Shown here piece after piece: positions 1 through 62,700 of a stretch of DNA of 64,000 bases. A model generated the notes under the pieces. The model saw nothing but the letters and a program-made list of their open reading frames with translations. It searched no databases and had not been told where the DNA came from. The stretch is taken from contig NZ_CP085530.1 in the NCBI RefSeq assembly GCF_020616155.1, positions 1,425,501 through 1,489,500 of the forward strand. The letters run 5' to 3'. The position numbers and the translations under genes were made by a program. Origin of the DNA: Vogesella sp. XCS3. GTDB lineage: Bacteria; Pseudomonadota; Gammaproteobacteria; Burkholderiales; Chromobacteriaceae. Positions within the stretch are counted from its first letter, which is position 1. Every line of letters begins with the position of its first letter.

Positions 1-1561
1 AGGCACCACGGTAACGGTTGAACAGCAAGTTGCCCTTCTCTTCACCGTGCGCTTCGATCAGCAGGTGGTGCAGCTCTTCCTGCCAGCCGCGTACCACGCG
101 GGCGATGTCGGTTTCCAGTTCCTGGGTACGGAACTGCGGCAGATGGCCGCCCTGGGTGCGGATAATGTAATGCACACGCGCCAGGGTGCTATCGCTGATC
201 TGCACGCTGAATTCGGCCGACGCGCCATTAAAGGCATTCATCAGCACGCGCTCGATTTTCAGGCGGATTTCGGTATTGAAGCTGTCACGAGGCACAAACA
301 CCAGGCAGCTTACATAACGATGGTAGCGGTCGGTACGTGTGTACAGGCGCACACGCGGGCGCTCCTGCAGGTTCACGATACCTTCCACGATAGGGGTCAG
401 GGTTTCTGCCGGGATTTCGAACAGCTCGTCACGCGGGTAGCTTTCCAGCACAAAACCCAGGGTCTTGGCTTTGTAGCTGTTGTCTACGTAATCGCAAGCG
501 GATACCACGTGGGCTACTTTTTCACGCAGCAGCGGGATGTCTTTCGGCGACTGCTGGTAAGCGCTGGCGGTATACAAGCCCAGGAAGCGGCGTTCGCCAA
601 CAACTTCGCCCTTGCTGTTGAAGCGCTTGATGCCGACAAAGTCCATGTAGGCGGAGCGATGCAGCACCGAGCGGGACTGCGATTTGTTCAGGATCAGCAA
701 CTGCGGCTGGTGCGCCAGTTCGCGCAGGTCTTGCGGCAGCGCCTCGAAGCTCTCGGAATACTCTTTATTACCCTGGTCTTTCAGGAAGCCCAGGCCGGAG
801 TTCTTCACGATCTTCAGGCTGTCTTTGCCGTCACGCTTCACCAGGTCGTAATCGCAGTAACCCATGAAGATGAAATGGTTGGCCGCCATCCAGTCCAGGA
901 AGGCTACCGCTTCGGCGGCTTCGCGCTCGCGCTCGCCCTTGATGGCGGCCAGGTCGGCGCGCAGGGCGGCAACCACTTCGCGCATCTGCGGCTCGTCGTC
1001 TACCACGCGGCGCAGGTAGGACAGCACGTCGTTCAGGTCGGCTTGCAGTGCCTTGAGCACGGCCGGGTCGCTGACGCGATCCACCTGCACGTGAATAAAG
1101 GATTCCAGCGGCAGGCTGCGGTCTTCGGTGCGTTTGAATTCGGCAATCACGCCGTCTGCATTGCGGCCAACCGACAGTACCGGGTGTACCAGCAGGTGCA
1201 GGTTCAGGTTGTGGCGTGCCAGCAGCATGGCGACCGAGTCGATCAGGAACGGCATGTCATCGTTCGCGATCTCGATCACGGTGTGGGTGCTCTGCCAGCC
1301 GTCACGCTCGAAATCGGGGTTGTAAATACGGGCCTTGGCCTGGCCTGGCGCGCGCTTCTTGGCGAATTCGAAATGCGCCATGGCTGCGCCGAACAGATCC
1401 AGCGGCGAGAAGCTTTTCAGGTCTTCGTGTTCGGTTTCTTCAAAGTAAAGCGGCACAAAGGACCCCAGACTTGCGGCGTCCTGGCTGGACAGCTTCTGCT
1501 CTGCTACCGCCTGGATATCAGCAATCAGGCTCAGAAATTCAGTCTTGTTGGTAAGCGACAT
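1..1561 (-). CDS. gdhB: NAD-specific glutamate dehydrogenase, N-terminal part (cut by window edge)
   Basis: Oxidises glutamate to 2-oxoglutarate and ammonium with NAD+. The minus-strand frame is open from ATG at 1561 to the window start, giving about 520 residues of what should be a protein of about 1,600. It begins MSLTNKTEFLSLIADIQAVA and contains stretches typical of the large (GDH-180 type) enzyme, such as IEIANDDMPFLIDSVAMLLA and HFIFMGYCDYDL, which belong to its N-terminal ACT-like regulatory region. A GAGAAG ribosome site lies just upstream of the ATG. The gene diverges from the arginine-uptake operon. In Pseudomonas aeruginosa, gdhB is activated by ArgR and feeds arginine-derived glutamate into the TCA cycle, so the pairing is meaningful. 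The catalytic domain lies outside the window. Confidence 0.9.
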   Translation of the reverse strand, partial: MSLTNKTEFLSLIADIQAVAEQKLSSQDAASLGSFVPLYFEETEHEDLKSFSPLDLFGAAMAHFEFAKKRAPGQAKARIYNPDFERDGWQSTHTVIEIANDDMPFLIDSVAMLLARHNLNLHLLVHPVLSVGRNADGVIAEFKRTEDRSLPLESFIHVQVDRVSDPAVLKALQADLNDVLSYLRRVVDDEPQMREVVAALRADLAAIKGEREREAAEAVAFLDWMAANHFIFMGYCDYDLVKRDGKDSLKIVKNSGLGFLKDQGNKEYSESFEALPQDLRELAHQPQLLILNKSQSRSVLHRSAYMDFVGIKRFNSKGEVVGERRFLGLYTASAYQQSPKDIPLLREKVAHVVSACDYVDNSYKAKTLGFVLESYPRDELFEIPAETLTPIVEGIVNLQERPRVRLYTRTDRYHRYVSCLVFVPRDSFNTEIRLKIERVLMNAFNGASAEFSVQISDSTLARVHYIIRTQGGHLPQFRTQELETDIARVVRGWQEELHHLLIEAHGEEKGNLLFNRYRGA

Positions 1562-1634
1562 GTTGCTTCTCGTATTTGTTTTGGGAACACAGGTGTTGTG
1601 TGAGCGCATTGTAAGAGCGCCCACACCCTAGGGA

Positions 1635-1650
1635 TTTCCTTATTGCGACA
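1635..1650 (-). promoter_or_regulatory. Candidate ArgR half-site
   Basis: On the minus strand this reads TGTCGC, eight bases, then AA, the half-site pattern described for the AraC-type ArgR of Pseudomonas. It lies about 75 bases upstream of the gdhB start codon. A properly phased second half-site is not obvious, so this is tentative. Confidence 0.3.
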
Positions 1651-1708
1651 TGCTCGTACACATTCAATAACCGCACTGCACAATGACAAGTACTTGCGCA
1701 GCGGGAAA

Positions 1709-5207: not shown

Positions 5208-6335
5208 ATGCAACGCATAGACCACCCCCTGCTATCCCCCAGCCTCACCACCGGGCGTAGCATCTGTAGCTTTCACTACGGCCAGCCAGGCCAGGGTGAA
5301 AAGGTCTACATCCAGGCCAGCCTGCACGCTGACGAGCTGCCCGGCATGCTTACCGCCTGGCACCTGAAGCAAAGGTTGGCCGCACTGGAAGCCGAGGGCC
5401 GCATTGCCGGCGAAATCGTGCTGGTGCCTGTGGCCAACCCCATCGGTCTGGACCAGAACCTGAACGGCGTGGCGCTGGGGCGCTTCGAGCTGGGTAGCGG
5501 CCAGAACTTCAACCGCCACTACCCCGCCTTTGCCCGTCAGCTGTTCGACAAGCTGCGCGATCAACTGGGCACGGACGCTGCGGCCAACACCCGCCTGGTA
5601 CGCGAGCACCTGCGCAGCATGGTGGCGGCTATCGAGCCGGCCAGCGAGCTGGCCTCGCAGCGCAAAACCCTGATGCTGCTGGCCTGCGACGCCGACGTGG
5701 TACTGGACTTGCACTGCGACATGGACGCCGCGCTGCACCTGTATACCGGCACCCCGCTGTGGCCGCAGTGCGAGCCGCTGGCGTGCTACCTGGGCGCCGC
5801 CGCCACGCTGCTGGCCGAAGACTCGGGCGACAACCCGTTCGACGAAGCCTGCAGCCAGCTATGGTGGCAGCTGCGCGACCTGGTACGCGATGCCGGCCTG
5901 GACGCCGCCATCGACATGGCCTGCCTGTCGGTTACCGTAGAGCTGCGTGGCCAGGCCGACGTGAGCCACGAGCTGGCCGCTAGCGATGCCGACCGGCTGC
6001 TGGCCTTCCTGAGCCACCGCGGCATCATCCGTGGTGAGGCACCGCCACTGCCCGCGCTGGTCTACCCGGCCACCCCGCTGGCCGGCTCGGAAAGCCTGCT
6101 CGCCCCGCACGCCGGCGTAGTGCACTACTACGTGCAGCCCGGCACCCTGGTAGAAAGCGGCCAGCACCTGGCCGATGTGATCGACCCGATAAACGACCGC
6201 GTTACCGCGCTGCGCGCCCACCGCGCCGGCATGCTGTACGCCACCGACAGCCGTCATTACGCTACTGCAGGCCAGTGGCTGGCCAAAGTTGCCAGCGCCG
6301 AGGCCTTCAAAACCGGAAAGTTGCTCTCAGCATGA
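5208..6335 (+). CDS. aotO: AotO-like succinylglutamate desuccinylase/aspartoacylase family protein
   Basis: A 375-residue M14-like zinc hydrolase of the AstE/aspartoacylase family. Metal-site elements are visible: H-A-D-E in [16 protein letters not shown], and [18 protein letters not shown]. The position between the permease and ATPase genes matches aotO of the Pseudomonas aotJQMOP operon, whose product is not needed for transport and whose substrate is not settled. A TAAGGAG ribosome site precedes the ATG, nine bases after aotM. Two copies of the TGCGGCCAAC motif lie inside the gene. The stop overlaps the start of aotP. Confidence 0.82.
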
Positions 6336-8970: not shown

Positions 8971-9503
8971 AGCAAGCCAACCGTTACCACCCCATGCAAA
9001 TCATGCTGCACAGCCTGATGGCCGTGCTGATGGTCTGTACTTTCGCCTTTGGCAAATACGTGCACAGCCTGCCGCTGTCGCCGGCCAAATTCCAGCTGAT
9101 CAGCTACCACAAGTGGGCCGGCATGGCCGTGCTGGCCCTGGTCATGGTGCGTATTCTGGTACGCCTGGCCAAGGGCGCACCGGCGCTGCCGGCCAGTATG
9201 TCTGCCGCTGCCCGCCTGGTGGCGCACGCCGGCCACCTGCTGCTGTACGTGCTGATGATCGCCATCCCGCTGTCCGGCTGGCTGATGAGCTCTGCCTACG
9301 GCATCCCCGTGGTGATGTTCGGCCTGTGGCAAGTACCCGACCTGATTGCGGCCAACCCCGAGCTGGCACCGCAACTGGGGCAGCTGCACGGCGCACTCAA
9401 TACCTTGCTACTGCTGGCCGTACTGGGCCACGTAGCGGCGGCACTGAAACACCACTTCATCGACAAAGACGGCCTGCTGAGCCGCATGAGCCTGCGCGGC
9501 TAA
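8967..9503 (+). CDS. Cytochrome b561
   Basis: A 178-residue di-heme b-type membrane cytochrome of the bacterial CybB family. It has four hydrophobic helices and conserved histidines, including HPMQIMLHSLMAVLM near the N-terminus, ISYHKWAGM, AHAGHLLLYVLM and LGHVAAALKHHF. The start overlaps the MarR stop (ATGA). In many proteobacteria b561 precedes yceI genes, as here, suggesting electron transfer to a quinone or quinone-like partner held by YceI. Confidence 0.88.
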   Translation: MKQANRYHPMQIMLHSLMAVLMVCTFAFGKYVHSLPLSPAKFQLISYHKWAGMAVLALVMVRILVRLAKGAPALPASMSAAARLVAHAGHLLLYVLMIAIPLSGWLMSSAYGIPVVMFGLWQVPDLIAANPELAPQLGQLHGALNTLLLLAVLGHVAAALKHHFIDKDGLLSRMSLRG

Positions 9504-9530: not shown

Positions 9531-10076
9531 ATGAAAAAAGCACTGCTTCTGCCCCTGGCTGCCCTGCTCGCAGCGCCAGCCTTTGCCCAGCCGGTTGACC
9601 TGACCAAGAGCCAGCTGGCCTTTACCCTGAAACAGATGGGCGTGCCGATGTCCGGCAGCTTCAAGAAGTTTGCGGCCAACGTGGACTTCAACCCGGCGCA
9701 AGCAGAAACCGGCAAAGCCGACATCAGCATCGACGTGGCCAGCATCGCGCTGCCTACCGGTGAAGCCAGCGCCGAAGCACGCAAAAAGGAATGGTTCAAC
9801 GCCGCCCAGTTCCCGCAAGCGCGCTTCGTGTCTACCAGCATGAAGTCGCTGGGTAACAACCGTTACCAGGTTACCGGCAAGCTGACCCTGAAAGGCATCA
9901 GCCGTGACGTTAGCGCGCCGTTTACCGCCACCGCCCAGGGCAAAACCCTGACCGTAGACGGCACGCTGCCGATCTCGCGCCTGGCATTCAAGATCGGTGA
10001 AGGCAGCTGGAGCGATACCGGCACCGTGGCCGACAACGTAGACCTGAAATTCCGTCTGGTGCTGGTCAACCCCTGA
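9531..10076 (+). CDS. YceI-family periplasmic protein 1
   Basis: A 181-residue YceI-like lipocalin-type beta-barrel with a signal peptide (MKKALLLPLAALLAAPAFAQ). Family features include LTKSQLAFTLKQMGVPMSGSF and TGKLTLKGISRDVSAPF. Some members bind a polyisoprenoid such as a quinone. It follows cytochrome b561 by 27 bases and has a paralogue directly downstream. The copies share only the family pattern and are not recent duplicates. Confidence 0.86.
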   Translation: MKKALLLPLAALLAAPAFAQPVDLTKSQLAFTLKQMGVPMSGSFKKFAANVDFNPAQAETGKADISIDVASIALPTGEASAEARKKEWFNAAQFPQARFVSTSMKSLGNNRYQVTGKLTLKGISRDVSAPFTATAQGKTLTVDGTLPISRLAFKIGEGSWSDTGTVADNVDLKFRLVLVNP

Positions 10077-10804: not shown

Positions 10805-12607
10805 TCAATCCGGCTGGCGCAGTGGCAGCGTCACGGTAAACATGGCGCCATTGCCCTCGCTGCTTTCCACCTCGATACTGCCGTGGTGCATCTGCACCAG
10901 CTCTTTCACCAGCGCCAGGCCAATGCCACAGCCTGGTATACCCTGCGCGGTACTGGCGCGGAAAAACCGCGTAAACAGCCGGCCCTGCTCGCTTTCCGGC
11001 ACACCCACCCCCCAGTCACGCACCGACACCCTTACCGTGTCATTATCCTGGCGCAGGCTCAGCGCCACACGCTGCCAGCGCGGCGAATACTTGATGGCGT
11101 TATTGATCAGGTTGGAAAAAATCAGCCGCAGCAGCTCCATATCGCCCTCTACCTGCAAGGCGACCTCAGCCTGGGCATCCAGCTCGATATGGCAATCCGG
11201 ATAAATAGCCTGGTTCAACTCCACCAGCTCGCTGACCAGCGGTAACAGCCGTACCGGCACGTGCTCTACACGAATCTGATCCGACTCCAGCCGGTTCAGC
11301 GTCAGCACGCTGTCTGCCAGCGTTACCATATGTGCCACCATATCGCGCACACGCTGCACCCGCTCGTGCAGCATCTCGCAGGTAAACTGCCCGGGGCTGC
11401 GCAAAATGCGCTGGGCAATGCCATCGATCACCGCCAGCGGGGTGCGGTACTCGTGAGACACCATGGAGACAAAACGCCGCTGCATTTCCATCAGCTCGCG
11501 TTCGTGCTGCAAGGTGGCTTCCAGCGAGCGCTCACGCTCACGAATATGCGAGATATTCAGCACACTCACCAGAATACTGGGGATACCGCGGTAATCCACC
11601 AGGCAGCCGGTGAGGCTGGCGTCAAAACGCTGCTGCTGGCGGTCGCGCAGCACGGTCTGAAAATCCGACACCATGCCCTGTAGCTGCAACAAGTCCAGAA
11701 ACTGGGTGCGGTCTTCCGGCTTTTCGTACAAACCCACCGAAACGGGCGACAAATCCCCGCTACTGCCCAGCCACATGCCGTACAGCTCTATCGCCAGCCG
11801 GTTGGCGTAGCGGATACGCCCGCCTTCCAGCTCGGAAATCACCATGGGCAGCGGCAGGGCATCCAGGATGCTCTGCAGCTCCTCGCTGCGCTCGCGCTGT
11901 AGCTGTAGCAGTTTTTCCCGGTCGCCAACATCGTGCTGGCTCACCAGCAGGGCCGGGTCGCCGGTGGCTGGGTCGGCCACTTCTACCAGCTGCATCTGGT
12001 GGCGCGTGGTGCTGCCATCGGCCAGGTTGACCTCCACAATGCGGCGTACCGAACGGCTTTCCGATACCGCCGTGCGCAGCTCGCGGGCGATGGCGGCGCA
12101 ATGCAGGTTGGCCGCAAAGGCATCGTCCGCCTGCGGCAAGTAGGCCTGCGCGGCCGGGTTGCGCAGCAGTACATTGCCGTGCAGGTCGTACAAGGTCACC
12201 ATCTCGCGCACGTGGCGCAACATTTCTACCGAGCGCGACACCTGGGTTTCGAAATTCAGCTCGCTGGCTTCTACGCGCATGATTTCCGGCACCGCCACGT
12301 CCAGCTGGGCACAGTGGCAATGCAGCTGCACCGGCCGGCCACGCGGGTAGATGGTCCAGGTTTCGCGCACGGTTTCTTGCCGCGCAAAGGCTGCCTGGTA
12401 GCCTTGCAGGCGCAAGCGCCCGCCTTCGCTACTCATGCTCAGGTCGCGCTGCTGCAGGGCTTCCAGGTCTGGCGCATCCCATAACTTGAGCGCGGCCAGG
12501 TTGGCCCACACTATGGTCTGCTGGCTGAAATGGTAAAACCAGATGGCAGTGCTGAGCTGGTTCAATGCCGGCAGAGCCGGCAGCCAGCCCGGAGGAATGG
12601 CTGTCAT
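10805..12607 (-). CDS. PAS-domain sensor histidine kinase
   Basis: A 600-residue soluble kinase; no membrane helices are evident. Two to three PAS-like segments fill the first 370 residues (one begins ILDALPLPMVISELEGG). The dimerisation/phosphorylation box is FVSMVSHEYRTPLAVIDG, and the ATPase part has NLINNAIKYSP, DWGVGVPESEQGRLF and GCGIGLALVKELVQ. It lacks a receiver domain. The ATG at 12607 has GGAGG four bases upstream and overlaps the stop of the REC-EAL gene, so it is last in a three-gene minus-strand operon. It may act with the upstream kinase on the same response regulator; the signal is unknown. Confidence 0.85.
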   Translation of the reverse strand: MTAIPPGWLPALPALNQLSTAIWFYHFSQQTIVWANLAALKLWDAPDLEALQQRDLSMSSEGGRLRLQGYQAAFARQETVRETWTIYPRGRPVQLHCHCAQLDVAVPEIMRVEASELNFETQVSRSVEMLRHVREMVTLYDLHGNVLLRNPAAQAYLPQADDAFAANLHCAAIARELRTAVSESRSVRRIVEVNLADGSTTRHQMQLVEVADPATGDPALLVSQHDVGDREKLLQLQRERSEELQSILDALPLPMVISELEGGRIRYANRLAIELYGMWLGSSGDLSPVSVGLYEKPEDRTQFLDLLQLQGMVSDFQTVLRDRQQQRFDASLTGCLVDYRGIPSILVSVLNISHIRERERSLEATLQHERELMEMQRRFVSMVSHEYRTPLAVIDGIAQRILRSPGQFTCEMLHERVQRVRDMVAHMVTLADSVLTLNRLESDQIRVEHVPVRLLPLVSELVELNQAIYPDCHIELDAQAEVALQVEGDMELLRLIFSNLINNAIKYSPRWQRVALSLRQDNDTVRVSVRDWGVGVPESEQGRLFTRFFRASTAQGIPGCGIGLALVKELVQMHHGSIEVESSEGNGAMFTVTLPLRQPD

Positions 12608-14247
12608 GGTGCCTCCAGCAGGGCAAGAAGTTCGTCCAATGGCATAGGCCTATAGAAATAATAGCCCTGCGCGTAGCGGCAGCCCAGGTTCAGCAAAGCC
12701 TCCGCCTGTACGGCGGTTTCCACTCCTTCCGCCACCACGGTGCAGCCCATGGCGCGCGCCAGGCCAATCAGGCCTTCCACAATCTGGGCATCGATTTCCT
12801 GCCGGGCAATATCGGTGACAAAGCTGCGGTCTATCTTGATGACCTCGGCACGCAAGCGTTTAAGGTAGGCAAGCGAGGCGTAGCCCATGCCGAAATCGTC
12901 TACCGCCAGCTTGGTGCCCATCTCGCGCAAGCGGGCAATGGCCTGCTCTACCTCGGGCGTGAGGTGGGCCATGGAGGTTTCGGTAACTTCGATTTCCAGG
13001 TTGGCCGCAATGCCTTGCGCGTCGTCTTTCAGGCAATCATTCAGGTAGGCAGGCACCCCCGCCCCCAGGCTTTGCCCGGACAGGTTGAACGACAGCACGG
13101 TATGCGGCGCACGCTGCACCATCTGGCGCACGGCTTGCAGCATGCGGCTGATCACCCAGCGGTCCAGCTCAGCGGCCAGGCCCATGCGCTCGGCAGCGGG
13201 CACAAAAAAGCCTGGCGACAAGGCGCCAATGGCGGCACCGGGCCAGCGCAGCAGGGCTTCCGCCCCGACAATCCCCCCGCTGGCAATATCCACCCGCGGC
13301 TGGAACACCAGCTCCAGTTCGCCATGGCGTATGGCTTCAGCCAGGTTGCGCTCGGCGTAGCGGGCTGCCTCCAGGGCGTGGTAATCGGCGTTGCCCAGAT
13401 AGATAAAACGGCGGGCGTTGCCGGCACTCATGAAGTTCAGATGCAGCGCGCACGCCTCCACCAACGCGCTGGCGTCCAGCCGGCGCAGCTCGGGCGATGT
13501 CCAGTCCACCTGGATACGCAGCATGCTGAAGGTGTAGTTCACCACCACCCCGCCCACCAGGATTTCATGGCGCTGCATGCTGGCCGGGATATCGCTGTCC
13601 TGGGTATCGGCGCGCTCGATCAGCGCCCAGCAGCCATCGGCCCAGCCGTACACCTTGCCGGACTCGGCCAGCTGCGCCAGTTGGGCATGCACCTGGCTGC
13701 GTAACAGCTGCTGCTCAGCCGGCGCCAGCCGGATGGACAAGCCAAGAAAACTGTCGATCTTGGTCAGGATCACACTCACCGGCGCTACCACGCGGCGGGC
13801 AGCTTCAAGCCGCTCCAGCAGTAACTGGCGGCTAAAGAACTGCCCGTTGGCGTCGGCAAAGGTATCGGAATGCCGGCGGCGCTTGATACGCGACGCCACG
13901 GCCGCCAGCAGCAGGTCAAAATCCACCGGTTTGACCAGGTAGTCCACCACGCCCAGCTCGCGCCCGCGTATCTGGTTCTGGCGGTCGCCCAGGGCGGTGA
14001 GCATGACAAAGGGCACAGGGTCGTCATCGTTCAGATTCACGGCTTCCAGCAGCTCGAAGCCATTCATGCGCGGCATGGAAATATCGCACACCACCAGGTC
14101 CGGGCTGTGCTGGTGCACCATCTCCAGCCCTTCCACCCCATCGCGCGCCTGCAGCACGTGGTAGCCGGCAAAAGCCAGCTCCTCGCAGATCAGCATGCGG
14201 ATGGTGTTGTCATCCTCTACACACAGTACGGTTCTTTGTTCAGACAT
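12604..14247 (-). CDS. Response regulator with EAL c-di-GMP phosphodiesterase domain
   Basis: About 547 residues. An N-terminal receiver domain has the acidic pair EDD, phospho-acceptor Asp in VVCDISMPRMNGFELL, and lysine in DYLVKPVD. A middle region (about 130-290) looks like a degenerate GGDEF domain without its signature. The C-terminal EAL domain is intact: GAEALLRW, EVTETSMAHL, AVDDFGMGYASLAYLKRL, KIDRSFVTDIA and AEGVET. It should hydrolyse cyclic di-GMP under phosphorylation control. A second in-frame ATG lies at 14253, but GGAG spacing favours 14247. It overlaps both neighbouring kinase genes, so the three are translationally coupled. Confidence 0.85.
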   Translation of the reverse strand: MSEQRTVLCVEDDNTIRMLICEELAFAGYHVLQARDGVEGLEMVHQHSPDLVVCDISMPRMNGFELLEAVNLNDDDPVPFVMLTALGDRQNQIRGRELGVVDYLVKPVDFDLLLAAVASRIKRRRHSDTFADANGQFFSRQLLLERLEAARRVVAPVSVILTKIDSFLGLSIRLAPAEQQLLRSQVHAQLAQLAESGKVYGWADGCWALIERADTQDSDIPASMQRHEILVGGVVVNYTFSMLRIQVDWTSPELRRLDASALVEACALHLNFMSAGNARRFIYLGNADYHALEAARYAERNLAEAIRHGELELVFQPRVDIASGGIVGAEALLRWPGAAIGALSPGFFVPAAERMGLAAELDRWVISRMLQAVRQMVQRAPHTVLSFNLSGQSLGAGVPAYLNDCLKDDAQGIAANLEIEVTETSMAHLTPEVEQAIARLREMGTKLAVDDFGMGYASLAYLKRLRAEVIKIDRSFVTDIARQEIDAQIVEGLIGLARAMGCTVVAEGVETAVQAEALLNLGCRYAQGYYFYRPMPLDELLALLEAP

Positions 14248-16336
14248 GGTCATGCTCCGTCAGCGGCAGGTAGACGGACACGATCAGCCCTTCGCCCTCG
14301 GCACTCTCCAGCTGTAGCCGGCCGCCCATTTCATTTACAAAGCGCGCCACCATGGTGAGGCCCAGGCCGCTGCCCACGGCACGGTCGCCGCTACGGCGAT
14401 AAAACGGCTGCAGCAACTGTGCCAGCTCGTCGGCAGGTAGCGCCGGGCCGCCATCGCTGATCCGTAGCAGCCACTCCTTGCCTTGCAGACTGCTGGCCAC
14501 ACGTAGCTGGCCACCGCCATGGCTGGACGCATTCTGCAGCAGCTCCTGCACCACCAGGCGTAACAGTGGCTCGCGCGCGGCAGGGCTGTCCGGCGCGTCC
14601 AGCTGGCGCTGGATATGCTGATCTGTCAGCCCATCGGCAACCAGGCTATCCAGCAAGGCGGGCAGCGATACCGGCAGCAAGGGCGCATGATTGTCCTGTA
14701 CCGGCAGCAAGGCCAGCAGGCTGCGATCCAGCATGGCTTCCAGGCGCTCGCCTGCCTCGCGGATCAGGCCCAGGCGCACCTTGAGCGTATCGGCATCCGT
14801 CGTGCTGCCCCGGCGCTGTAGCGCCTGGGCCACCGAATCTATCTGCGCCAGCGGCGTGCGCACCTCGTGCGACAGTACTTCGATGAAGTGCTGCTGTTGC
14901 TGGTTGATTTGCCGCTCGGTAGCCAGGGCTTTTTCCATCTGCTGGCGCGCTTGCTCTTCCACGCTAGCGGCTTTTTCCAGCTGCAAGGCCATCTGGCCAA
15001 TATGCTGGCCCAGGGCATTCAGCTCCATGATGGGCTGCTCGGCAATGGTAGTGCGGTATTGCCCGGCACCGATCTGCTCTACCGCTTGCTGGAAGCTGGC
15101 CAGCGGTGCCACCACGCGCTGGCTCATCTGGCGGGCACGGCGCGCCAGCAAGGCAAAGAAAACCGCATAGAACACCAGCAAGGCGGCCAGCATGAACCAG
15201 CCTATGGTCGTCATGCGCTCATGCAGCTTTTGTGCCGCGGCCAGGATAACCGGCTCTTCGGCCACCATCAGCATGGTCCAGTTCGGGCCGGCCACCCGCG
15301 ACCAGGCCACGACCTCTTGGCGGCCATGGCGCAGCGGCAAGGTGGCAATGCCGGAAGAACCCTTGCCCATCAGTGCGGCCAACTTCTTGCCTTCCGGGTG
15401 CAGGTCGATACGGTATTTTTCCGGCTTGAACACGTTCTGGCGGATAGCCTCGGTATAGCTGTGCGCCCCCAGCTCCTGCAGCCCCCAGTCGTGCTCGCCT
15501 TGCGGTGGCAGCGCCAGAATCGTGCCGTCCCGCCCGATCAGCATCACGTAGGCGCCCCAGGGCAGGTCCAGCGCCAGCAGCTCATCCACCACGGTTTTCA
15601 GGGTAATGTCGATACCCACCACGGCCTGCAGCGTATCGCCCTGCCAGACAGGGGCGATGGACGACACCATCCAGCCCTGGCCTGCCGGGTCCAGATAGGC
15701 GTCGGTCCATACCGGTTTGCGCGCGGGGTTATGCTTGCCGTCGGCCTCGTAATAGAAATTGAACGACGGGATATCCATCTTGGCCGGGTACTGCCCCTTC
15801 ACCTCGAAATAAGGGTAGATGCGGTTGTAGGAATCCTTGGTATTCAGATAAACCTGCGCAATCAGCGGGTTGGCCGCTTTTACGTCTTTCAGTACCGGGT
15901 CCAGCTGAGCGCTACGGTCTATGGTTTCCTGCTGCTGCGGGCCCAGCGGCACGATACCGCTGTAGTAGGCTGCAGCACCGCCATTGTCTCGGGTGGTAAT
16001 CAGCGCCCCGTCTGGCGTGCGCTGGTAGCGCGACTTTTCATCGGCAGCGGGGGTGTAGGGTGTCTGCAGGGCACGCCCGGTCTGGCGGGCAAACAAGCCG
16101 GTAATGCCCGACACGGCATTCAGGCGCTCGGACAAGGCCCGCGCCTCGGCTTGCACCTCACGCGGCATGAAGGCCTTGGAAATATCGCCTACCGTGCGGC
16201 TGTTATCCTGGTAAATCATCTGGGCGCTAACCCAGTAAATCAGCAAAAACCCGAGCTCGATCACCAGCAAGGGAATCAGTGCCGTACGCAGGAAAGACTG
16301 CCAGAACCAGCGGTCCAGCCTGACTTTTTGGCTCAT
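14240..16336 (-). CDS. Cache-domain membrane sensor histidine kinase
   Basis: A 698-residue kinase. Transmembrane helix 1 is at about residues 17-39 (IPLLVIELGFLLIYWVSAQM). A long periplasmic region of double-Cache type follows, with VYLNTKDSYNRIYPYFEVKG and VVGIDITLKTVV. Helix 2 is at about 370-395, then a HAMP-like linker and coiled coil, phospho-acceptor box FIEVLSHEVRTPLAQIDSVA, and ATPase motif GSGLGLTMVARFV. Cache domains usually bind small metabolites. It is first in the operon with the EAL regulator and the PAS kinase, so it probably sets c-di-GMP in response to an external ligand. Confidence 0.87.
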   Translation of the reverse strand: MSQKVRLDRWFWQSFLRTALIPLLVIELGFLLIYWVSAQMIYQDNSRTVGDISKAFMPREVQAEARALSERLNAVSGITGLFARQTGRALQTPYTPAADEKSRYQRTPDGALITTRDNGGAAAYYSGIVPLGPQQQETIDRSAQLDPVLKDVKAANPLIAQVYLNTKDSYNRIYPYFEVKGQYPAKMDIPSFNFYYEADGKHNPARKPVWTDAYLDPAGQGWMVSSIAPVWQGDTLQAVVGIDITLKTVVDELLALDLPWGAYVMLIGRDGTILALPPQGEHDWGLQELGAHSYTEAIRQNVFKPEKYRIDLHPEGKKLAALMGKGSSGIATLPLRHGRQEVVAWSRVAGPNWTMLMVAEEPVILAAAQKLHERMTTIGWFMLAALLVFYAVFFALLARRARQMSQRVVAPLASFQQAVEQIGAGQYRTTIAEQPIMELNALGQHIGQMALQLEKAASVEEQARQQMEKALATERQINQQQQHFIEVLSHEVRTPLAQIDSVAQALQRRGSTTDADTLKVRLGLIREAGERLEAMLDRSLLALLPVQDNHAPLLPVSLPALLDSLVADGLTDQHIQRQLDAPDSPAAREPLLRLVVQELLQNASSHGGGQLRVASSLQGKEWLLRISDGGPALPADELAQLLQPFYRRSGDRAVGSGLGLTMVARFVNEMGGRLQLESAEGEGLIVSVYLPLTEHDHV

Positions 16337-16450: not shown

Positions 16451-17101
16451 TCAGCGCAACTCGCCTGCGGCCAACGCTATGCGGGTGCGCTCCAGCAGCT
16501 GCTCTGGCGGCACAGCACCGCCAAAATCCAGGCGCTGGCGCTGGCCATGCACCAGGTAGTCCACACCGTAGCAATCCGCCCCCAGCACGGCCACATGCTT
16601 GCCCGGCGGTACCAGCGCCGGTAGCAGACTGGTTTCGGTAGCCAGGTCCAGCAGGTCGCCAGCCTGCCAGGCTTCGGCCTGTATCCAACCCATCTGGCCG
16701 AAACCGCCAATAAAGCGCAGCGCACGCAAGGACAGGCGGTAAAAGCTGAAATCGCCCAAGGCCAGGTACTGTTCGAAATCCGGGCAATAGCGCAGCAATC
16801 TGGCTTGCAGCGCCGCATCCGGCTGCTGCGGCTGCAGCTCGCCCACCAGCGTCATGCGTGCCTGCTGCAGCACAGCATCGGTGGGTGCCTGCAGCAGCAG
16901 GCTGACACGCGGGTCGGCCTGGACATTGCGGCAATGCTCGGCCAGGCTGCTCATCAATAGCCACGGGCTGTGGTCCGGCCCCGGCGCAAAAGGCAGCACC
17001 GTGGCAAACGGGTAGCCAGGTACCGCCTGCGAGTGGCTGGCCAGTACAGCCGTGCTGCAACGGTGCAACAGGGAAAAGGCTTGCGATACGGGTATTTTCA
17101 T
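16451..17101 (-). CDS. HugZ-like pyridoxamine 5'-phosphate oxidase family protein
   Basis: A 216-residue split-barrel protein resembling the heme-utilisation HugZ/HutZ family. The flavin/PNPOx barrel starts with STAVLASHSQAVPGYPFATV, has HCRNVQADPRVSLLL, and carries FYRLSLRALRFIGGFGQMGW before a DUF2470-like C-terminal part. Such proteins act in heme breakdown or as flavin-dependent reductases. It stands alone on the minus strand, 114 bases from the kinase operon, with no heme-uptake gene beside it in the window, so function is inferred from family only. Confidence 0.7.
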   Translation of the reverse strand: MKIPVSQAFSLLHRCSTAVLASHSQAVPGYPFATVLPFAPGPDHSPWLLMSSLAEHCRNVQADPRVSLLLQAPTDAVLQQARMTLVGELQPQQPDAALQARLLRYCPDFEQYLALGDFSFYRLSLRALRFIGGFGQMGWIQAEAWQAGDLLDLATETSLLPALVPPGKHVAVLGADCYGVDYLVHGQRQRLDFGGAVPPEQLLERTRIALAAGELR

Positions 17102-29822: not shown

Positions 29823-29823
29823 C

Positions 29824-38361: not shown

Positions 38362-38383
38362 GGTTGGCCGCATGCGGCCAACC
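38362..38383. repeat. Back-to-back inverted pair of the TGCGGCCAACC motif
   Basis: Two 11-base copies, one on each strand, abut to form a perfect 22-base palindrome nine bases after the hoxG stop; TTTGG follows. It could form a hairpin at the transcript end, as inverted DUS pairs do in Neisseria, although hoxZ lies downstream. Confidence 0.9.
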
Positions 38384-39402: not shown

Positions 39403-39413
39403 GGTTGGCCGCA
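39403..39413 (-). repeat. TGCGGCCAACC motif, copy after terminator
   Basis: Extended form (AAAGGTTGGCCGCA on plus) lies directly behind an intrinsic terminator. Its last A is the first base of the next gene's ATG. Confidence 0.85.
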
Positions 39414-42103: not shown

Positions 42104-42113
42104 GCGGCCAACC
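42103..42113 (+). repeat. TGCGGCCAACC motif, upstream of L,D-transpeptidase
   Basis: Complete motif overlapping the proposed start codon of the minus-strand gene, in the rlmD/L,D-transpeptidase divergent region. Confidence 0.8.
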
Positions 42114-51247: not shown

Positions 51248-51578
51248 CATCGTGAACATGTTCCCGCACACCGGCCACGTGGAGTCCATCGCCTGGTTCG
51301 AAAAAACCAGCCCGTGCATGACCCACGCCGAAGTAGCAGAAATGGAAGCACGCGAAGAAGCCGAGCGCGATGCCGCCCGTGCCATCGCCATTGCCGCCCG
51401 CGAAGTGCGTGAAACCCAGCTGGCCGAGCTGCGTGCCATCGAAAAAGCCGAAAAGCAGGCTGCCAAAGCCGCCCGCACCGCCGAGTTCCAGGCCCGCACT
51501 GCGGCCAACGCTGAAAAGCGCGCCGCTTTCGAAGCACGCCAGGCTGGTGGTGACACCGCTAGCGAGCAGGCGGAGTAA
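51248..51578 (+). pseudogene. Displaced 3' end of rlmD
   Basis: An in-frame remnant encoding the last 109 or so residues of RlmD ([20 protein letters not shown] to the same GSEQAE-type end, here ASEQAE). It lacks a start and the enzyme core. It is followed by an intrinsic terminator, which suggests it is the original chromosomal gene end, cut off by integration. Confidence 0.88.
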
Positions 51579-51751: not shown

Positions 51752-51762
51752 GGTTGGCCGCA
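51752..51762 (-). repeat. TGCGGCCAACC motif, intergenic copy
   Basis: The extended form AAAGGTTGGCCGCA on the plus strand, between the rlmD terminator and the end of the first pilY1 gene. Confidence 0.85.
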
Positions 51763-51789: not shown

Positions 51790-54700
51790 TTACGGGGTAA
51801 TGATCTCGCGCCAGCTGACCCGGCTTACCACCCGGTTCAGCACCTCATCCAGCTCCCCGCCAGTGCCACCTGAGGTCAGAGACAAGCCCAACGATACACG
51901 GCTGCCGGTTCTGATACGCGCCCTGCCTAGCGAACCGGCGGTACGCTTGCCCACAATGCGGCTGGCATTCGTCTGACTGCCGAGTGCACTTTTAACCAGC
52001 GGGTCATCAAAGCGCGGCTTGGCAAACACACCACCGGTACGATAGTTCAACCGCAGCAAGTAACCGCTGTCTTTACCGACCTCGCAGGCATTGGTGGCTG
52101 GCGCCGCAGGAATATAGGTTTGTACTTCCAGCCGCTTTTTGTAGTAGTCCAGCGCACCCACCACCCGCTCGCCAGAGGTAGGCAGGTCGATGTACCAACC
52201 CAACCAGTAGCTGCCCGCGGCATCGCGCTCGGCTTGCGGTTTGTCAAACGCCGGAAACGGATAGAGCTTATCGGTGCTACCGTCCGGGCGCAGAGTTTTG
52301 ACAGCCGTACGGGCACGGCCGTTTTCATCACATGGCGAGCTGGCAATGGTGGCGGGCGGGTAAGCCAGCTTGTTATCCGAGCCTTGCCGATAGGTACCGG
52401 CCTCTGCACCAGTCAGGGTGATATCGGTCAGATACTGCGCCAGCAGCTCTTTGCGCTGGCAAATGCGGCCACCGTAGTCCCACAGCCCGTAAATGGATTG
52501 CTGGCTATCCTCGCCCTGGCAGCTGCCACCCAGCTTGTCGCAGTTGTCCAGATAGCGGCCGGTACCCACATACACCATCAAGCCCGGGCGGCTAGCTGTC
52601 GCAGTCGTCTGGGGGTAGTCCGGATGGGGTGCAACAACCGGGGCCGACATGATGGGCTGGACTTGGCCATTCGGGCCCAAGGCACGATACAGCAGCACCG
52701 GGCTGGTCTTGCCCCAGTCAGCCGGTTCTTTGGCAGACAAGTCAAACTTCCACACGTTGCCCAGCAAATCGCCTGCGTAAACCAGGTCTATCGTGCCGTT
52801 ATTGTCCAGATCATAAGTGGCAATATCGGAAAGGCCATTACCACTGCCGGCGGCTGCCTGCAGACGCCAGTAGTTGCTGCCTTCGCCCCAGCTACTGATG
52901 CCACTCTTTACCGGCAAGATGAATAATGAAGCACTGCCCTGCTTGCTGTTGTAGCCATTGGGGGCCAACACATAGTCTTGGCCATCGTTCAGGCGGACTA
53001 TTTGCGGTGTCAGGCCATGCTGCTTGCCCATGTGTTCGCTGTGCTGGCTGCCAAACTCCCAGCGCACCAGTTTTCTGGCGGTACTCAGATCTTCGGTCAC
53101 CTGTGCTGGCTGGGTGATATCCAGCAGGAACATCGCCTCGCCACCCCGCCCCAGCGTGCCGGCCAGATAGGTGGCTACCGTCTTGTCTGTCTGGTTCACC
53201 GCCTCTGCCACGGATAGCGCACCATCAACGTAGTAGCTGTGCTGGTCTTTGTAGTTTTGCTGCGAAAGATTCTTCAAACGGGGCAGCAAGAGTGAGGGAA
53301 TATAGGCAAAACGCTCTTCCCCCGTACTGGCATCAAAGGCATGCAGCATGCCGTCGTTTGCGCCCACATAGACCATGGCCGGCCGGTCTTGTGCTGCCTT
53401 GATCTTGTCGGATGGTGCGCCCACGTACACGGGTGCCGACCCGATGATATCCCCCAGCAGTGTGGTTCGTTGGCGATAGCCACTATTGCCTTCGAGGTCA
53501 CCACTCCCCCGCAGATAGTCCACCAGGCTGGTATCCAGGTTGCTCGTCAGGCCGGCGAGTTTGAGGTGATCCCAGGTAAACGGACGTGCCAGGCTACCCG
53601 TACCGCCACCGCCCATCAGAATGACACGGCCCTTGCCTTTGCTTAGCTTGTCTGCAGCATTCCATTGCTGTGCCCCAACGGTAACAGAGCTACCCGTCTT
53701 GGTTAGCTTGAAGGCGCGCAAACTGCCTGTCCAGTTATCTGAATCAAAACCCGCCTGAAAATACAGCGCACCATCACTATAGACTTGCTGACTCATGCCA
53801 CCGGCTGCCTGCGAGCCGGACATCTGGGTGATCTCGTTCAGTGCATCCAGCAATCCTTTGCGGAATTCGTCCGGGTTGGCCGCTGCGACAAACCTACCGC
53901 GAGTATTGACTGCGGCATGCAGCAGATCATCGATTTTGTTGATCTCTGCCGAATTAGGGGCTGGCCAGCTTTTGCTGCCTGCGGCCAACAAGGGGAGATC
54001 CGCCACCGGATCCAGCGTGCCTTTCAAGCCCAAAGACAAGCTGAAGGTCGTCATATGCTGCCAGGTTGCCGGGTTTTGCGTGGTTGGCCGCACGTTATTG
54101 GGCTGCGACGTTTTCAGGTCGTTCTTCCAGTATTTCATTGCCACATCTGCCAGCGTATTGCTGTGGGCATCAGGGTATGGCGCATCACTGAAATTATCGG
54201 TGTTACCGACATTGATGCTCTCGTCACTCCAGTAGCCATCCGTAGTCAGAATGGAAAACGCCCGTCGGCAGCTGACCCCGTCATTCCAGTAGTTATTCTT
54301 GAAATTTTCTCCAGACCACTGCAGTGCCGAGCGTAGCGGCGTACCCTGCTGATAAAGCTGTAAATTCAGCAAGCTATCAAAAAAATCTGTACGGTTTTGC
54401 CCGGTAAACCCACCGCTTGTTGGCACAGGAAGGTAAGAATTCCCATCCCGATTAATTGTGACAAAGCCTACACGGTACTCGGACCCCAGTTCGGAAAATG
54501 CCAAGGCGGTGCTGGCCTTGGCCGCCAGAATGCGCGAGCGGTAATACTGGAACCAGATGGCAAAATTGCGTGCTTCATCCGCAACGCTACGCCCCCAGGG
54601 AAACTGGTCGATTTCTTTCCCTACATCATCCTGCTGGCTATTCACCTGTGCCAGGTCGGTACGGTAGGCTTTGCTGCCCTGAATCTGGTAGCGGATATAG

Positions 54701-55639: not shown

Positions 55640-58600
55640 TTAGTCGGCAATGATCTCGCGCCAGCTTACCCGGCTGACCACACGGCTGGACGAGCCCAGC
55701 TGGTTACACTCGATGGTACCGCTGACACCGGTGTTGCAGAGCACCAGCTTGTTCTTGTTGCCGGCCAGTGTTACCAGCAAAGAACCACCGTAGTTGACGC
55801 CTGTGGATAGCGATTGCCGGTTTGCCTTGCTGTCCCGGCTGGTGACGCGGCCATCGCCATCGGTATCCATCAATGGCTTGTCGGGCGCGGCACCATTGCT
55901 CAGGCTGACGATGGTGCGGAATGACGCCTCGCCTGCTGTCGAACACTCCTGCCGCAGACGGATGCTATCCACCACCACCATATCGGTTTTCAGTACCGAC
56001 ATATAAAACGGCGACGAGACGACCTGCTCGTTGGTAGTAAGCGGGATATACCAGCCTTTCTGGTTGGCCGCCATGCTACTGGTAGAGGTGCGCGAGTAAC
56101 CGGAATCCGATGATGGCGTGGCATGGGCCAACAAGTTGCGCGGGTCGCCTACTGCGCTGCCATTGTCGTAAATGCCATAAATAGCGTGCCCGGTAGAGGC
56201 ACGGTCTTGCTCGTCGTAATTGATACCGGTGCCAAACACGACAACCTTCTGCCCCCCCGCAGTCTTCATCAGTACAGGCGCGGCGGTAATGGGTTGGCGG
56301 CTCCCCAGCGTGGTGCCGCTCATGGTGTAGGCGGTAAACAGCGGGGTTGCACCCAGGGCCACGTTCCAGCTGGTGGGCGAGGCCGCGCTGATATCGAACT
56401 TCCATACATTGCCGTTCAGGTCGCCAGCGTAGAGATAATCCACGGTACCGTTGCCGTCGTCGTCGTAGGTGCTGACATCGGTAATGCCGTTTGGCGCATA
56501 CAGCGGAGTACTAGACGGCGTGACCGTAAGCTTGAAGTAGTTGTCATTCAGTACCCAAGCTTGCCCGGCTGGCTTGTCCAGCATCAGCAGAAATACGCCC
56601 GCATTGCTACCCGTCTGGTTGATGCCGTTACCCAGCACCGCCGCCCAGCGGCCATTATTGAGCTTTACCAGCTTGGGCAGCGTCATCATATTGCCCAGTG
56701 TGCTGTCATTGGCCGACGAGAATTCCCAGCGTACGTTGGCCGCATTCATGCTGGTGGGGGTTGTGACGTCAATCGCGTAGATACTGCTGCTGCCGTAGCC
56801 GTCGGCCTTGGTAATGCCTCGGCCCGAGGCGCCAATCAGCAAGGTGGCTGCCTGGTTATTCAGGCAAACGTCCTTGATTACCGGGCTGCCATCATGCAGG
56901 CGTACGTACTCGTAGTCTTTTGCGGCCAACTTGGCTGCTTGCGGATAGACCGCAGAAGGCATGAAAGCAAACAGCTCTTTGCCCTGGTCTGCCTTGACCT
57001 TGTCGCCGTAGTTGAAGATATGCAGGAAACCGTCGTTCGCCGGCACGGCGTAAATGGACGGCCGCGCTTTTGCCGCTACAGAGAAGGTACCGCAGCCACT
57101 GATATCGACAGGCGCACCACCAAACGCCACCTTGGCCAGCTCGATTGGCCCCAGGCGGGCACTGCGGGTGCGATATGCCTTGCTACCGCTATTACCCGCA
57201 TTGGTATTGTCGCCCATCAGATAGGCCAGACCGTTTGCATTCAGGCCGGTCTCGCTTTGCAGATAGCTGCTGGCGCTACTAAAGCTGATGCCCGTTTCAT
57301 TGGTCTTGTTGTAGGCGTAAATATTACGGCCGCTGGCCGTGGTACCCAGTTGGGCCTCCAGCTTGGCCTTGGTGCTCCAGTCCAGGGAAAGGGAGCCGCT
57401 GTTCAGCACATTATTGGTCAGCGTTACCTTGTACGCCTCTACATCACCGTACCAGTCGGTGCTGTCGGTAGACGAGCGCTCGAAGGTGGTGCGGAATATA
57501 TGGCTGCCATTATTGACATTGTTAGTGCCGGATGACACCGCCAGGCCAGACAGCGACGGCTTCACCGCCAGGGCTGCGTAGCTAAAGGCACGGTTCAGCG
57601 CTTTTACCAGGGCTTCCGGGTTGTTGGCGGGGGCGTAGTTGTCTGGCACGCCGTTGGGAAACGCACTGATGGTTTGTAGATCGCTGGACCATTCCGACTT
57701 CACGTTAGGTGTTTTGCTGCCGTCGTTGTCTTCGAAACCGCCCCACTTGGCCGCCAGGTAAAACGAGTTCGTGGTTTCGGATTTGTACGAGCCGCTTTCC
57801 ACCACGTCGATCATGAACGCTTTGACGTGCTGCTCGCCGGATTTATCGCTACGTATATCAAATACATTGCCCCAGTACGCCAGGGCGGCAATATAGCCGG
57901 GCGAATTGGTAGAGCCGATATTGTCTGTACCACCACTACGAACGGTACTGAGCAAGGTGCTGACATTCAGGTCAGTATCATCGCTGGGCTTTCTGGGGGT
58001 TCCCCAGGTAGAGCCTGGCAAGTCCACATCGCCGTGTACGTTGACATCACCCAGATAGATAATGAAGTTGTTCTGGTCGGAGCTTTTGAGCGGGTCGTCC
58101 CAATCGGTAATGACAGGGAAGCTGTCTTTCTGGTTATTGTTGGTGATATTGGTGTAGGCGCTAAGGTTGCCCTTGTTGCGCAGGTAGCGCTGGGCCGCGT
58201 AATACAGCTCGGCGGCCGGGTCGTAGGATTTGTAGCCACCCTCACCAAAACGGTTCAGATAGTTCACCACGCCGCTATTGCTCACGCTACTGTTACTCGC
58301 ATCGGTAGGGTCGGGGTTGGTATAGAAGACACCGGTTTTCGGGTCCCACTCGCGCCCCAGCGCAATGGTATTACCACCGTTGGTGGTAACCGTCTGGTAG
58401 CAGCCCGGGTATTTCAGCCGCGCGCGCAACACACCACCATCACGGTCGTAGCTGCTATCCAGCAGATAACTGAACACCCCTACCCGCATGGTTTTGGCGT
58501 ACTTCTGGATCAGGCCTTCCGGCTTGTAGTCCACCACACCTGTAGACGGCGTATACAGTGTGCAGTTACTACCCATGGCAAAGCTGCTGGACTGCACGCA

Positions 58601-59420: not shown

Positions 59421-59455
59421 GAAATGGCACCAGTTTATATAACTGGTGCCATTTC
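59421..59455 (-). terminator. Strong hairpin between second and third pilY1 genes
   Basis: Perfect 15-base arms GAAATGGCACCAGTT and AACTGGTGCCATTTC with a five-base loop. It lies downstream of the third (minus-strand) pilY1 copy. The remaining gap (59276-59713) is AT-rich and holds one weak small open frame (see findings). Confidence 0.7.
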
Positions 59456-59713
59456 CATGAAACATCGCGTCACGTTTTTTATGAATCAATAACCAAAGCG
59501 TAGCGCTCGACCAACTGACAAAGTATTGTCACAGACTCAGGCCATCACTGGCGCTAGTAACATACACGTACCTGCATGATGATATGCCCCACAAGGCCCC
59601 GGCGGCAGACCGATGGTGCACTGCTCATGCGCGAGACTGCCGTCAGACACCAGCCACGCTGCGCCTGCCTGCCAAGCAGGTAAGGTGAACAAGCGAATGC
59701 CACACACCTGCCG

Positions 59714-62700
59714 CTAGTCCTGAATTACCTCTCGCCAGCTAACCCGCTTGGTGATACGGGAGGTGCCACAAGCGACAGGGCCGATAACGCTGCCGTTATA
59801 GCTAAGATAGCACTGGTTGCCTTGCTTGAAAGTATTGCGCCGAATCAAACCGTAGGAACCCGCCAATGCAAGGTTACCGGGGCCGCCAATACCGGCAGCC
59901 AACTGGCGTGCCTTTTCTTCCGTATACCCACGAGCCATTAGCTCCGCCACTAGGGCTTGTACTTCAGCAGTCAGTGGCGGGTTGATCACCCCCACCAAAG
60001 GCTTGCCGGTCAGACTAAAGTTATCGTATGGATAAGTGACATACTCGGACTCGCAGGCATCCGTACCTGACTTGCGGTAGTCGGTTTCAAAGATGACGCG
60101 GTTTTTACCGAACACCTCTAGGTTCACCACGTTTTCCTGCGGCAATTCCAGATCAACATAGAAACCCAGCTTGTAACTGGACAGACTATACGATGTCTTG
60201 CCATCCGGGCTAAGTAGCGTACGATCGCCGCTGGTGACACAAGCCGCGTTGTTTACTGCCGAACCGGGGTAGGCCAGCGCACCGTAGTCAAACACATGGC
60301 GGGTTTTGGGCAGGATTGTGGCAGGAAAGTGTTCCACGCCCACTGCGGCCAACTCGCTGCGTTTACAGATATAGCCTCCAAAATCCCAGATGCTGTATAC
60401 GCTGCGGGTAGTAGATTCGCCGGTGCAACCCGCCGTGTCCTTGTCGCAGGATTCCAGGAACTTGCCACCGGAGAACGTCAGCACCAGGTTGGGCTTGCTG
60501 GCTGAGCGTGTCAGGCTAAGCGTAGGGTGCTGCGACAGCTGTGGCGCCAGTATCACCGGCTGCACCTGGTTATCCGGGCCGGTAGCGACAAAGATACTGC
60601 TCGCACTCCATTGATCTTTGTCGCTATGGCTGACATTAAAACGCCAGATATTTCCCTTGAGATCACCAGCGTAAATCAGATCGACCTTGCCGTCCTTGTT
60701 AAGATCGTAATACGAAAAGTCAGACAAACCGTTGGCCGCACTGGCATCTTCGACCACCATTTTCTTGTAGTTGTCTGCAGCCCAGCTGGTGCGTGCATTG
60801 ACAGGCAAGAAGAACATAGCCGCCTTGCCCGCATTGCTGTTGTACCCATTGGGAGCAACTACGTACCAGTTGCCGTCATTCATCTGCAGAATCTGCGGCT
60901 GGGCAAAAGTGAGGCCGAAGTCACCATCGTCTGCCGAGGTAAATTCCCACTGCACCAAATCATTGGCTTTGGACTCCAACAGATTGGCAGGCGCGGTTAC
61001 ATCCAGCAAGAACAGGCTACGCCCGCCACCGCGCAAGCCACCAGCCAGCAAGGTTTTCCAGCGGCTATCAGCCCACGCAGCACTGCTATGCAGCTGGCCA
61101 TCAACAAAGTAACGGTGGCTGTAATTGCGATCGGAGAGATCGATCAGCGGCGACTGCCCTACCGTAGATGACAAGAATACTTTTGGCACGAAGGCAAATT
61201 TTTCTACCCCGCTAGCGGCATCAAAACCATGCAGCATGCCGTCGTTAGCCCCGACATACAACATGGCTGCCCGGTTTTTATTGCTGCTGTAGAAGCTGGC
61301 GTAGCTACTATCACTACGAAAGCTACTCAGCGGCGGCCCAACGTAGGCCCCGCGTGAATGCAGGATATCGCCCAACTTGGTACGGCTACGAACGCGGAAC
61401 TTGCCGGTAGTGGTGCCTTCGTTACTGGCACTACCGCGCAGGTAGTCAACTCGGTTGCTGGCTACGCCGGCAGCTTCAAAGCTTTCACGCAATGACGGCA
61501 GCAGGTTATAGGCGGGCAAGCCCAGGCTGGCGGCGGTAAACGGAATGGCTTTGACACTGCTGTGACTGACCCCGGCAATGATCTGCCGGTTGCCACTGGC
61601 TGGCAGCAATTCAGCGGCAGACCACAATGTGGTGGCAAACTTCTTCTGCGCGCTGTCATACTTTTTGGCTATCAGGCTACCCGACCAATCGGAGGAGTCG
61701 TAACCACCCGTATATTCCGCAGTATCGGTTTCCAGTTTGCTGCCACTGCCCACTGCCGGCACCAGAAATGGTGCCTGCTGCTGGATGGTATTGAAGATAC
61801 GATCCAGCTGCTGCTCCAGCTCCAAAGGGTTGGTCGCCGAGGCATATGCATCAGGCGTACCATCGCCATCGGCATCCCACTGGCTATTGTCTACCAGCGC
61901 ATTAGGATCCGTACCGGTTTTGGCATCGGTGTAGCCGCCATACTTCGCCATATACCACAGCGGCGACTGCAACCTCTCTACAGTGGCGTCGCCATTGCTT
62001 ACCGTAAAGATACGGTCGAAGTTTTCCGGCAGGATCGGGCAATTACTGCGCCTCGGGCTGTTGTACAAGCCGTACAGCAGGCTGTAGTAAGGCTGGCCGG
62101 TAGAAATGCACTCGATACTGGTGCCCTTGTACCCGTTCCAGGTCAATGCCCACGGTTCGTCTTCTTTCTCGCGGATCACCAGATAAGGGCCGGTCTTGTT
62201 GCCATCACTGGCCCCGCCAAGCGGGCTAACACCGGAAATGATGAAACCGGCGTAAGTTTGCGCGCCATTGGCAGCATAGAACGTGTCTACCTTCACCCGC
62301 ACGGTACTGCTGCTGTCCTTGCTGATACGGTAATCTGCAATGTGGTCTACGTCCCAGTCGCTACCGTCCTCAGAGTTTTCGAAGTTCACCCGGAAGCGGT
62401 AGCAGTTTGGCCAGGTGCAGCTACTGTCGCTCTTGAACAGGTAGTAATCCACAATGGACATGGTGTTGGCACCCGAGCGCGCGTACGGGATAAACGTTAC
62501 CGTCTGCTGCGAAAACTTCAGTTCGACCTTGGGCAAGGAGTTGGACAGCGCAATGGCAAAGGTACGAATGGCAGGCTTGCTCTTGCCGGCAGGCACGGTG
62601 ACATCCACGAGTGGCTTGGTACGGGCGTAGTAAGCGGCCATCGCGCCATAGAACCCGCCTTGACGGGTAGGTTCTTCCGGCGAAATGCCGCGCACATTAA

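Follow-up and report, generated by a model that had tools for sequence, protein, structure and literature searches.

A word of ten bases scattered over a 64,000-base stretch of the genome of Vogesella sp. XCS3 (the window, i.e. positions 1,425,501-1,489,500 of a 3,724,844-base contig in a genome of 3,889,382 bases and two contigs) very likely works like a DNA uptake sequence (DUS). The word is TGCGGCCAAC, and its reverse complement GTTGGCCGCA represents the DUS orientation. With the DUS numbering of PMC3630211, we prefer the notation AG-GTTGGCCGCA, in which GTTGGCCGCA is the 10-mer and position +10 is relaxed; the form AGGTTGGCCGCA is also used for the Vogesella word. We are fairly confident that it is a DUS and that a sequence-specific minor pilin, most likely a ComP homologue, binds it at the type IV pilus. 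The DUS-like interpretation, already offered in a first-pass annotation of this DNA, is supported by the genome-wide count, a codon-aware background, the lack of clear strand bias, the dialects of sister genera and the presence of a ComP-like pilin; from these we infer the uptake role, the identity of the receptor and the competence of the species.

Exact matching recovered 37 copies of TGCGGCCAAC in the window (21 on the plus and 16 on the minus strand), the number given previously; all of the earlier coordinates also held except one on the minus strand, whose true start is 12107 rather than 12108. The expectation of less than one copy from composition agrees with 100 dinucleotide shuffles, which gave a mean of 0.49 and a maximum of 3 copies. 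The core GCGGCCAAC occurs 50 times in the window, 37 of them with a leading T, matching the claim that T stands beside it 37 times against about 13 for the other bases. Across the whole genome there are 2,279 copies, 1,106 on one strand and 1,173 on the other, while the reversed control word has 11. The copies in the window, from the exact-match count, are:

1162..1171, +, DUS-like word
5375..5384, -, DUS-like word
5579..5588, +, DUS-like word
9347..9356, +, DUS-like word
9671..9680, +, DUS-like word within a YceI-like gene
12107..12116, -, DUS-like word within a histidine kinase gene (earlier given as 12108)
13000..13009, -, DUS-like word within an EAL response-regulator gene
15374..15383, +, DUS-like word
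16466..16475, +, DUS-like word
19573..19582, -, DUS-like word
21282..21291, -, DUS-like word
21508..21517, +, DUS-like word
23603..23612, -, DUS-like word
25118..25127, +, DUS-like word
25625..25634, +, DUS-like word
27005..27014, +, DUS-like word
28226..28235, +, DUS-like word
30003..30012, -, DUS-like word
31244..31253, -, DUS-like word
32617..32626, -, DUS-like word
33535..33544, +, DUS-like word
33698..33707, +, DUS-like word
35285..35294, -, DUS-like word
37501..37510, +, DUS-like word within the NiFe hydrogenase large-subunit gene
38363..38372, -, DUS-like word, half of an abutting inverted pair directly past the hydrogenase gene
38373..38382, +, DUS-like word, second half of the same inverted pair
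39404..39413, -, DUS-like word
42103..42112, +, DUS-like word upstream of an RNA methyltransferase gene
43704..43713, +, DUS-like word at the 3' end of the RNA (uracil-5-)methyltransferase gene, within the island-flanking direct repeat
51500..51509, +, DUS-like word within the second copy of the island-flanking direct repeat
51753..51762, -, DUS-like word, intergenic
53980..53989, +, DUS-like word in a PilY1 gene
54083..54092, -, DUS-like word in a PilY1 gene
56735..56744, -, DUS-like word in a PilY1 gene
56921..56930, +, DUS-like word in a PilY1 gene
60344..60353, +, DUS-like word in a PilY1 gene
60731..60740, -, DUS-like word in a PilY1 gene

Detailed statistics were drawn from a 424-kb sample of the same genome with 283 copies of GTTGGCCGCA. 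The word is a sharp nine-base core plus a relaxed tenth position: single-base variants at +2 to +9 lie within a few copies of expectation, except for C at +2, which is rarer (8 vs 18.8), while C at +1 exceeds expectation (14 vs 3.5), as do all variants at +10 (42 C, 45 G and 16 T against 3-6). Of the longer consensus suggested earlier, the part ending in AACCTT is backed by the sample, where, in the DUS orientation, A, A and G are preferred at -3, -2 and -1; for the CA that opens 'CATGCGG...' there is a weak preference at most. Spacing is near random (264 gaps, mean 1,430, coefficient of variation 0.92). Neighbours within 40 bp make up 16 of the 264 neighbouring pairs, and all 16 are inverted and none tandem, in line with the reported occurrence in both orientations and as close inverted pairs. 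The intergenic density is 0.94 per kb against 0.66 per kb, a modest excess under a strict definition (17 sites); a seemingly strong intergenic enrichment, obtained with a rough gene caller that misses genes in the GC-rich hydrogenase region, shrank to these values.

To place the word in its family we used a panel of 61 genomes, 13 from Vogesella (group g1) and 48 from other genera. Group g2 is Pseudogulbenkiania, including P. subflava and P. ferrooxidans 2002 (G013), which on account of its strain number we take to be the organism named Lutiella nitroferrum 2002. Group g3 includes Neisseriaceae bacterium JH1-16 and Crenobacter oryzisoli (G023, recognized by an identical pilin), g5 is Gulbenkiania mobilis, and g7 is Chromobacterium, including C. 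alticapitis (recognized by an identical protein) and C. paludis. Within Vogesella, G004 is V. alkaliphila and G003 V. margarita, and further loci represent V. indigofera and V. fluminis; G001 is presumed to be Vogesella sp. LIG4 and G024 of g4 Crenobacter cavernae. The Vogesella word numbers 1,871-2,895 copies in 13 of 13 Vogesella genomes and 8-58 in all 48 others, and no other genus of the panel carries it. A sister 9-mer, TCGGCCAAC, reaches 889-2,363 copies in nine genomes (two Pseudogulbenkiania, two g3, two g4, Gulbenkiania, g10 and G017 of g6), with 1,220 in P. ferrooxidans 2002. It is intermediate (252-321) in three (G029 of g2; G027 and G036 of g8) and has 41-185 copies in the other 49, including Vogesella, the reversed controls ranging over 31-129 across all 61. 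The two g8 genomes, with 308 (G027) and 252 (G036) copies against controls of 94 and 87, have ambiguous ComP matches.

Dialects were derived from word searches in genome stretches together with counts of the letters following GTTGGCCG. In the DUS orientation GTTGGCCGAA occurs 24 times in 81 kb of Pseudogulbenkiania, 19 times in 40 kb of Gulbenkiania, 27 times in 60 kb of JH1-16 and 12 times in 20 kb of g10, while C. cavernae has its own word, GTTGGCCGAG, with G at +10 (35 in 60 kb). G017 bears two words, GTTGGCCGAA (13) and GTTTGCCGAA (7), in 40 kb (L134, L135), and genome-wide it has 1,453 copies of TCGGCCAAC and 616 of GTTTGCCGAA (control 8); in the remaining nine genomes of g6 the counts are 45-121 and 25-66, respectively, so that this group is split. 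Nine groups bear a word, and in eight of them AG is the pair seen most often at -2/-1. In our sample of Vogesella sp. XCS3 the own word has 283 copies and the sister words 4 and 3. Several of the related genera compared carry genus-specific dialects on a common core.

The negative results delimit this distribution. The pattern GTTGGCCG[AC]A has at most 83 copies in 291 genomes outside the family (of 300 drawn from the order, nine were in the family); a few of these, with low counts, stand about fivefold above control (G123, 52 vs 10; G288, 60 vs 12; G151, 49 vs 10). No comparable word was seen in 20-kb stretches from three Chromobacterium (12 stretches, 240 kb), two g6 (8), three g8 (9) and three g9 genomes (6), nor in one stretch each from nine genomes of other families. 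Against a codon-aware null, 9-mers reached z values of 16.4 in C. cavernae and 11.0 in Pseudogulbenkiania as positive controls, whereas in ten word-less genomes (one to three per genus) no 9-mer exceeded 7.6 and no 8-mer 8.9, words rarer than about one per 10 kb escaping this test. In C. paludis (L141-L144) 80 kb hold 23 copies of AGCTTGCCG, where a simple Markov model predicts 2.4, and the word falls in the DUS register (GCTTGCCG); we rejected it as a DUS, as it did not rank among the leading words against the codon-aware null and its continuation is variable, and its excess is probably due to codon use. A separate array of about 10 copies of CCCTACTCCCTA was noted in G033 (L047; G033:C37:40001-60000).

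Could codon use or local composition have produced the word, or could it be a dispersed mobile repeat? Its core does yield the codons GCG-GCC-AAC in the commonest frame, frame 2, which accounts for 159 of the 199 genic copies. However, when synonymous codons were shuffled 100 times in 322 rough gene calls (353 kb), the 197 genic copies fell to 7.0 (sd 2.6, maximum 14), just as dinucleotide shuffling retained 0.49 of the 37 copies in the window. Moreover, sense and antisense copies are nearly equal (101 and 96), and outside -3 to +10 the information content never exceeds 0.23 bits at any position, hence there is no larger repeat around the word. The two types of shuffling refute this explanation, to which we attach practically no credence, and bear out the earlier statement that codon use does not account for the word. 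A chromosome maintenance signal, such as Chi, KOPS, ter, or a nucleoid-protein or terminator motif, would likewise have a high copy number, and the close inverted pairs could form stem-loops; but such pairs are just 16 of 264, and a clear strand or replichore bias is missing both from the genome-wide counts and from the sample (153 leading, 130 lagging, the side being judged from GC skew per stretch), as was foreseen. Sister genera also differ in their words, and in Chromobacterium and the majority of g6 genomes the counts are close to background; such turnover is unexpected for a core chromosome function, making a role in maintenance rather than uptake improbable.

The contrast between resident and foreign DNA is consistent with an uptake signal. 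The second contig has 2 copies in the 80 kb sampled, where about 53 would be expected, and the interior of the AT-rich island of the window (43,714-51,499) is free of the word, as reported before. The island encodes an integrase (43852-45078) and a resolvase (48201-48869), and is flanked at 43605-43810 and 51401-51600 by a direct repeat of about 200 bp comprising the 3' end of the RNA (uracil-5-)methyltransferase gene, which looks like an attachment-site duplication by an integrative element. One stretch of the second contig (L037; G000:C2:80001-100000) has few called genes and 9 copies of CGGATTGGCA in 20 kb, perhaps representing a long repetitive gene. Near comP, four comparisons among four close Vogesella found 10 of 12, 10 of 12, 11 of 12 and 8 of 11 sites kept, against 36-49% of random 10-column windows.

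A search for a ComP-like minor pilin identified one of 138 amino acids (G000:C1:3106142-3106552) encoded 2 kb from pilMNOPQ. Its nearest solved relatives by both sequence and fold are the ComP structures 2M3K, 2NBA and 5HZ7 (the structure model was made for P0002, 94% identical to it), the segment they have in common lying around LLENAxFxExxYxxxGxxKxTxxxWPxLP. It also passes the Pfam model PF16732 (32.4 bits against a gathering score of 27.3). As a receptor finder this model proved too loose: its best match in the genome (C1:112281; L008) is PilE-like, and another (C1:2523983; L058) is a general pilin. Among the three own pilins tested (this homologue, L008 and L058), ComP is the nearest solved relative of this homologue alone. 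PilQ, ComEC and DprA are present in the genome as well. A pilin match was found in all 61 family genomes, but this does not amount to 61 ComPs, given that the own PilE-like pilin scores 9.7e-21 in the same search; in seven genomes (four g9; G019, G027 and G036) the best match is no better than 4.6e-22, and that of G083 has one internal stop. In a ComP tree of 29 of the 30 loci (L105 left out), branches outside Vogesella are long and forks there stay open. C. alticapitis (L116) has a ComP homologue that is closest, among solved structures, to Neisseria ComP, and other Chromobacterium have relatives of it.

These components suggest a pathway in which free DNA with the word would be bound at the type IV pilus by the minor pilin, most likely the ComP homologue, and drawn through PilQ by pilus retraction, whereupon ComEC would pass it inward for recombination. 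As fragments bearing the word would be favored, copies would accumulate chromosome-wide on both strands and be rare in recently acquired DNA. Alternatively, a true DUS might be read by another pilin, e.g. the GspH/FimT-like one whose gene lies directly upstream of comP with a one-base overlap (L059:1571-2559), or by both jointly. A GspH-family pilin gene also adjoins comP in Vogesella sp. LIG4 (G001), FimT mediates DNA uptake in other bacteria (PMC8897410), the own ComP homologue lacks the DD region, and ComP homologues are present where the word is unseen. The two pilins may form a two-part receptor; yet the fact that ComP is the nearest solved relative of the ComP homologue alone among the pilins tested leaves a different reader unlikely, though a serious contender.

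Uptake sequences were previously known from Pasteurellaceae and Neisseriaceae (PMC7811141). The Neisseriaceae DUS (PMC3630211; PMC10715097) are, like the words described here, 10-12-mers with thousands of copies on both strands and in inverted pairs, with one dialect per lineage and occasionally two per genome, as in G017 and in Simonsiella muelleri (PMC3630211). All eight Neisseriaceae dialects have C+6, T+7, G+8 and A+10 (PMC3630211); the new words similarly favor AG at -2/-1, with C+6, G+8 and mostly A+10. The form AGGTTGGCCGAA matches mucDUS (inferred from the text of PMC3630211) and simDUS (PMC10715097) at 9 of 12 positions with no shift, and the Vogesella word matches known DUS at 8 of 12. 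Against genomic 12-mers, allowing for seven dialects, both strands and offsets of -3 to 3, the chance of at least 9 of 12 is 0.013 for AGGTTGGCCGAA, and of at least 8 is 0.08 for the Vogesella word. The earlier remark that the word differs from Neisserial DUS needs a correction: it is not simply different, since there is a suggestive alignment in register, with CCG in place of the CTG core. Pasteurellaceae USS are spread over their genomes in the same way, including inverted pairs that form stem-loops (PMC5217627), and have a predicted receptor (PMC12616744), but their sequence AAGTGCGGT is unrelated, a core of that type not being found in the over-represented word.

Several observations weigh against a DUS-ComP reading. 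The new dialects all have CCG, with C for T at +7, and the CTG variant has 1 copy in our sample vs 2.5 expected; +10 is relaxed in Vogesella and G in C. cavernae, so that A+10 does not hold. The own pilin has two cysteines instead of the four that form two disulfides in the DD region, the DNA-binding part of Neisseria ComP (PMC4906244), and therefore lacks that region; across the soluble parts of 29 homologues there are two or three cysteines, never four. The soluble part of the own pilin does not appear strongly basic, with weak or no net positive charge by computed pI, the sole measure used, which is 8.6 (4.8-9.8 across the 29). In Chromobacterium and in nine of the ten g6 genomes the words are near background although ComP-grade homologues are present; conversely, three diverged Vogesella ComPs (G001, G006 and G010) accompany an identical word. 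ComEC and DprA occur in many bacteria, and the controls found them in E. coli as well. Between Vogesella sp. XCS3 and two of the species compared near comP, members of the other Vogesella clade, one of six aligned sites was kept each time (random 5%), which gives long-term site conservation no support. The three PilY1-like genes in the window (51790-63163, minus strand, consecutive, each of 1,149-1,218 amino acids), noted earlier as pilus-tip genes, are real but carry no evidential weight for the motif. Lacking the CTG core and the DD region, the system is not classed as a Neisseriaceae DUS with a standard ComP; it is best read as a DUS-ComP-like system for self-DNA uptake outside Neisseriaceae.

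Among the relatives of Vogesella, such uptake marks were reported earlier from the Neisseria family only. The hosts described here are Vogesella, Pseudogulbenkiania, Gulbenkiania and Crenobacter. In its available text a 2013 survey recognized no obvious DUS in Pseudogulbenkiania or Chromobacterium, the genomes so described including Lutiella nitroferrum 2002 and Pseudogulbenkiania NH8B; its BLAST search of C. violaceum gave no ComP, and it placed the origin of DUS after the split from that species (PMC3630211). The word may stand unrecognized among the over-represented 10-mers of table S1D of that paper. In the literature searched, mostly without subscription journals, we found no published report of the Vogesella word or of DUS in these genera. 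We tentatively propose, with a little short of even confidence, that the DUS-ComP system predates the split between Neisseriaceae and the Vogesella-Chromobacterium lineage. An ancestral AGGxxGxCYGAA would have given rise to CTG dialects in Neisseriaceae and CCG dialects in the four genera above, the latter read by a ComP without the DD region, perhaps with the adjacent FimT-like partner, while Chromobacterium would have lost the word but retained the receptor.

Should these words prove to be DUS, the date of origin of the system would need revision, the CTG core would not be essential to the kind, and a relative of ComP could serve without the DD region. The coevolution of receptor and word would be directly testable in these environmental hosts, which have several dialects and pilin variants and in some cases the pilin without a word. 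For Vogesella itself, the word very probably lets the cell recognize and take up DNA of its own kind.

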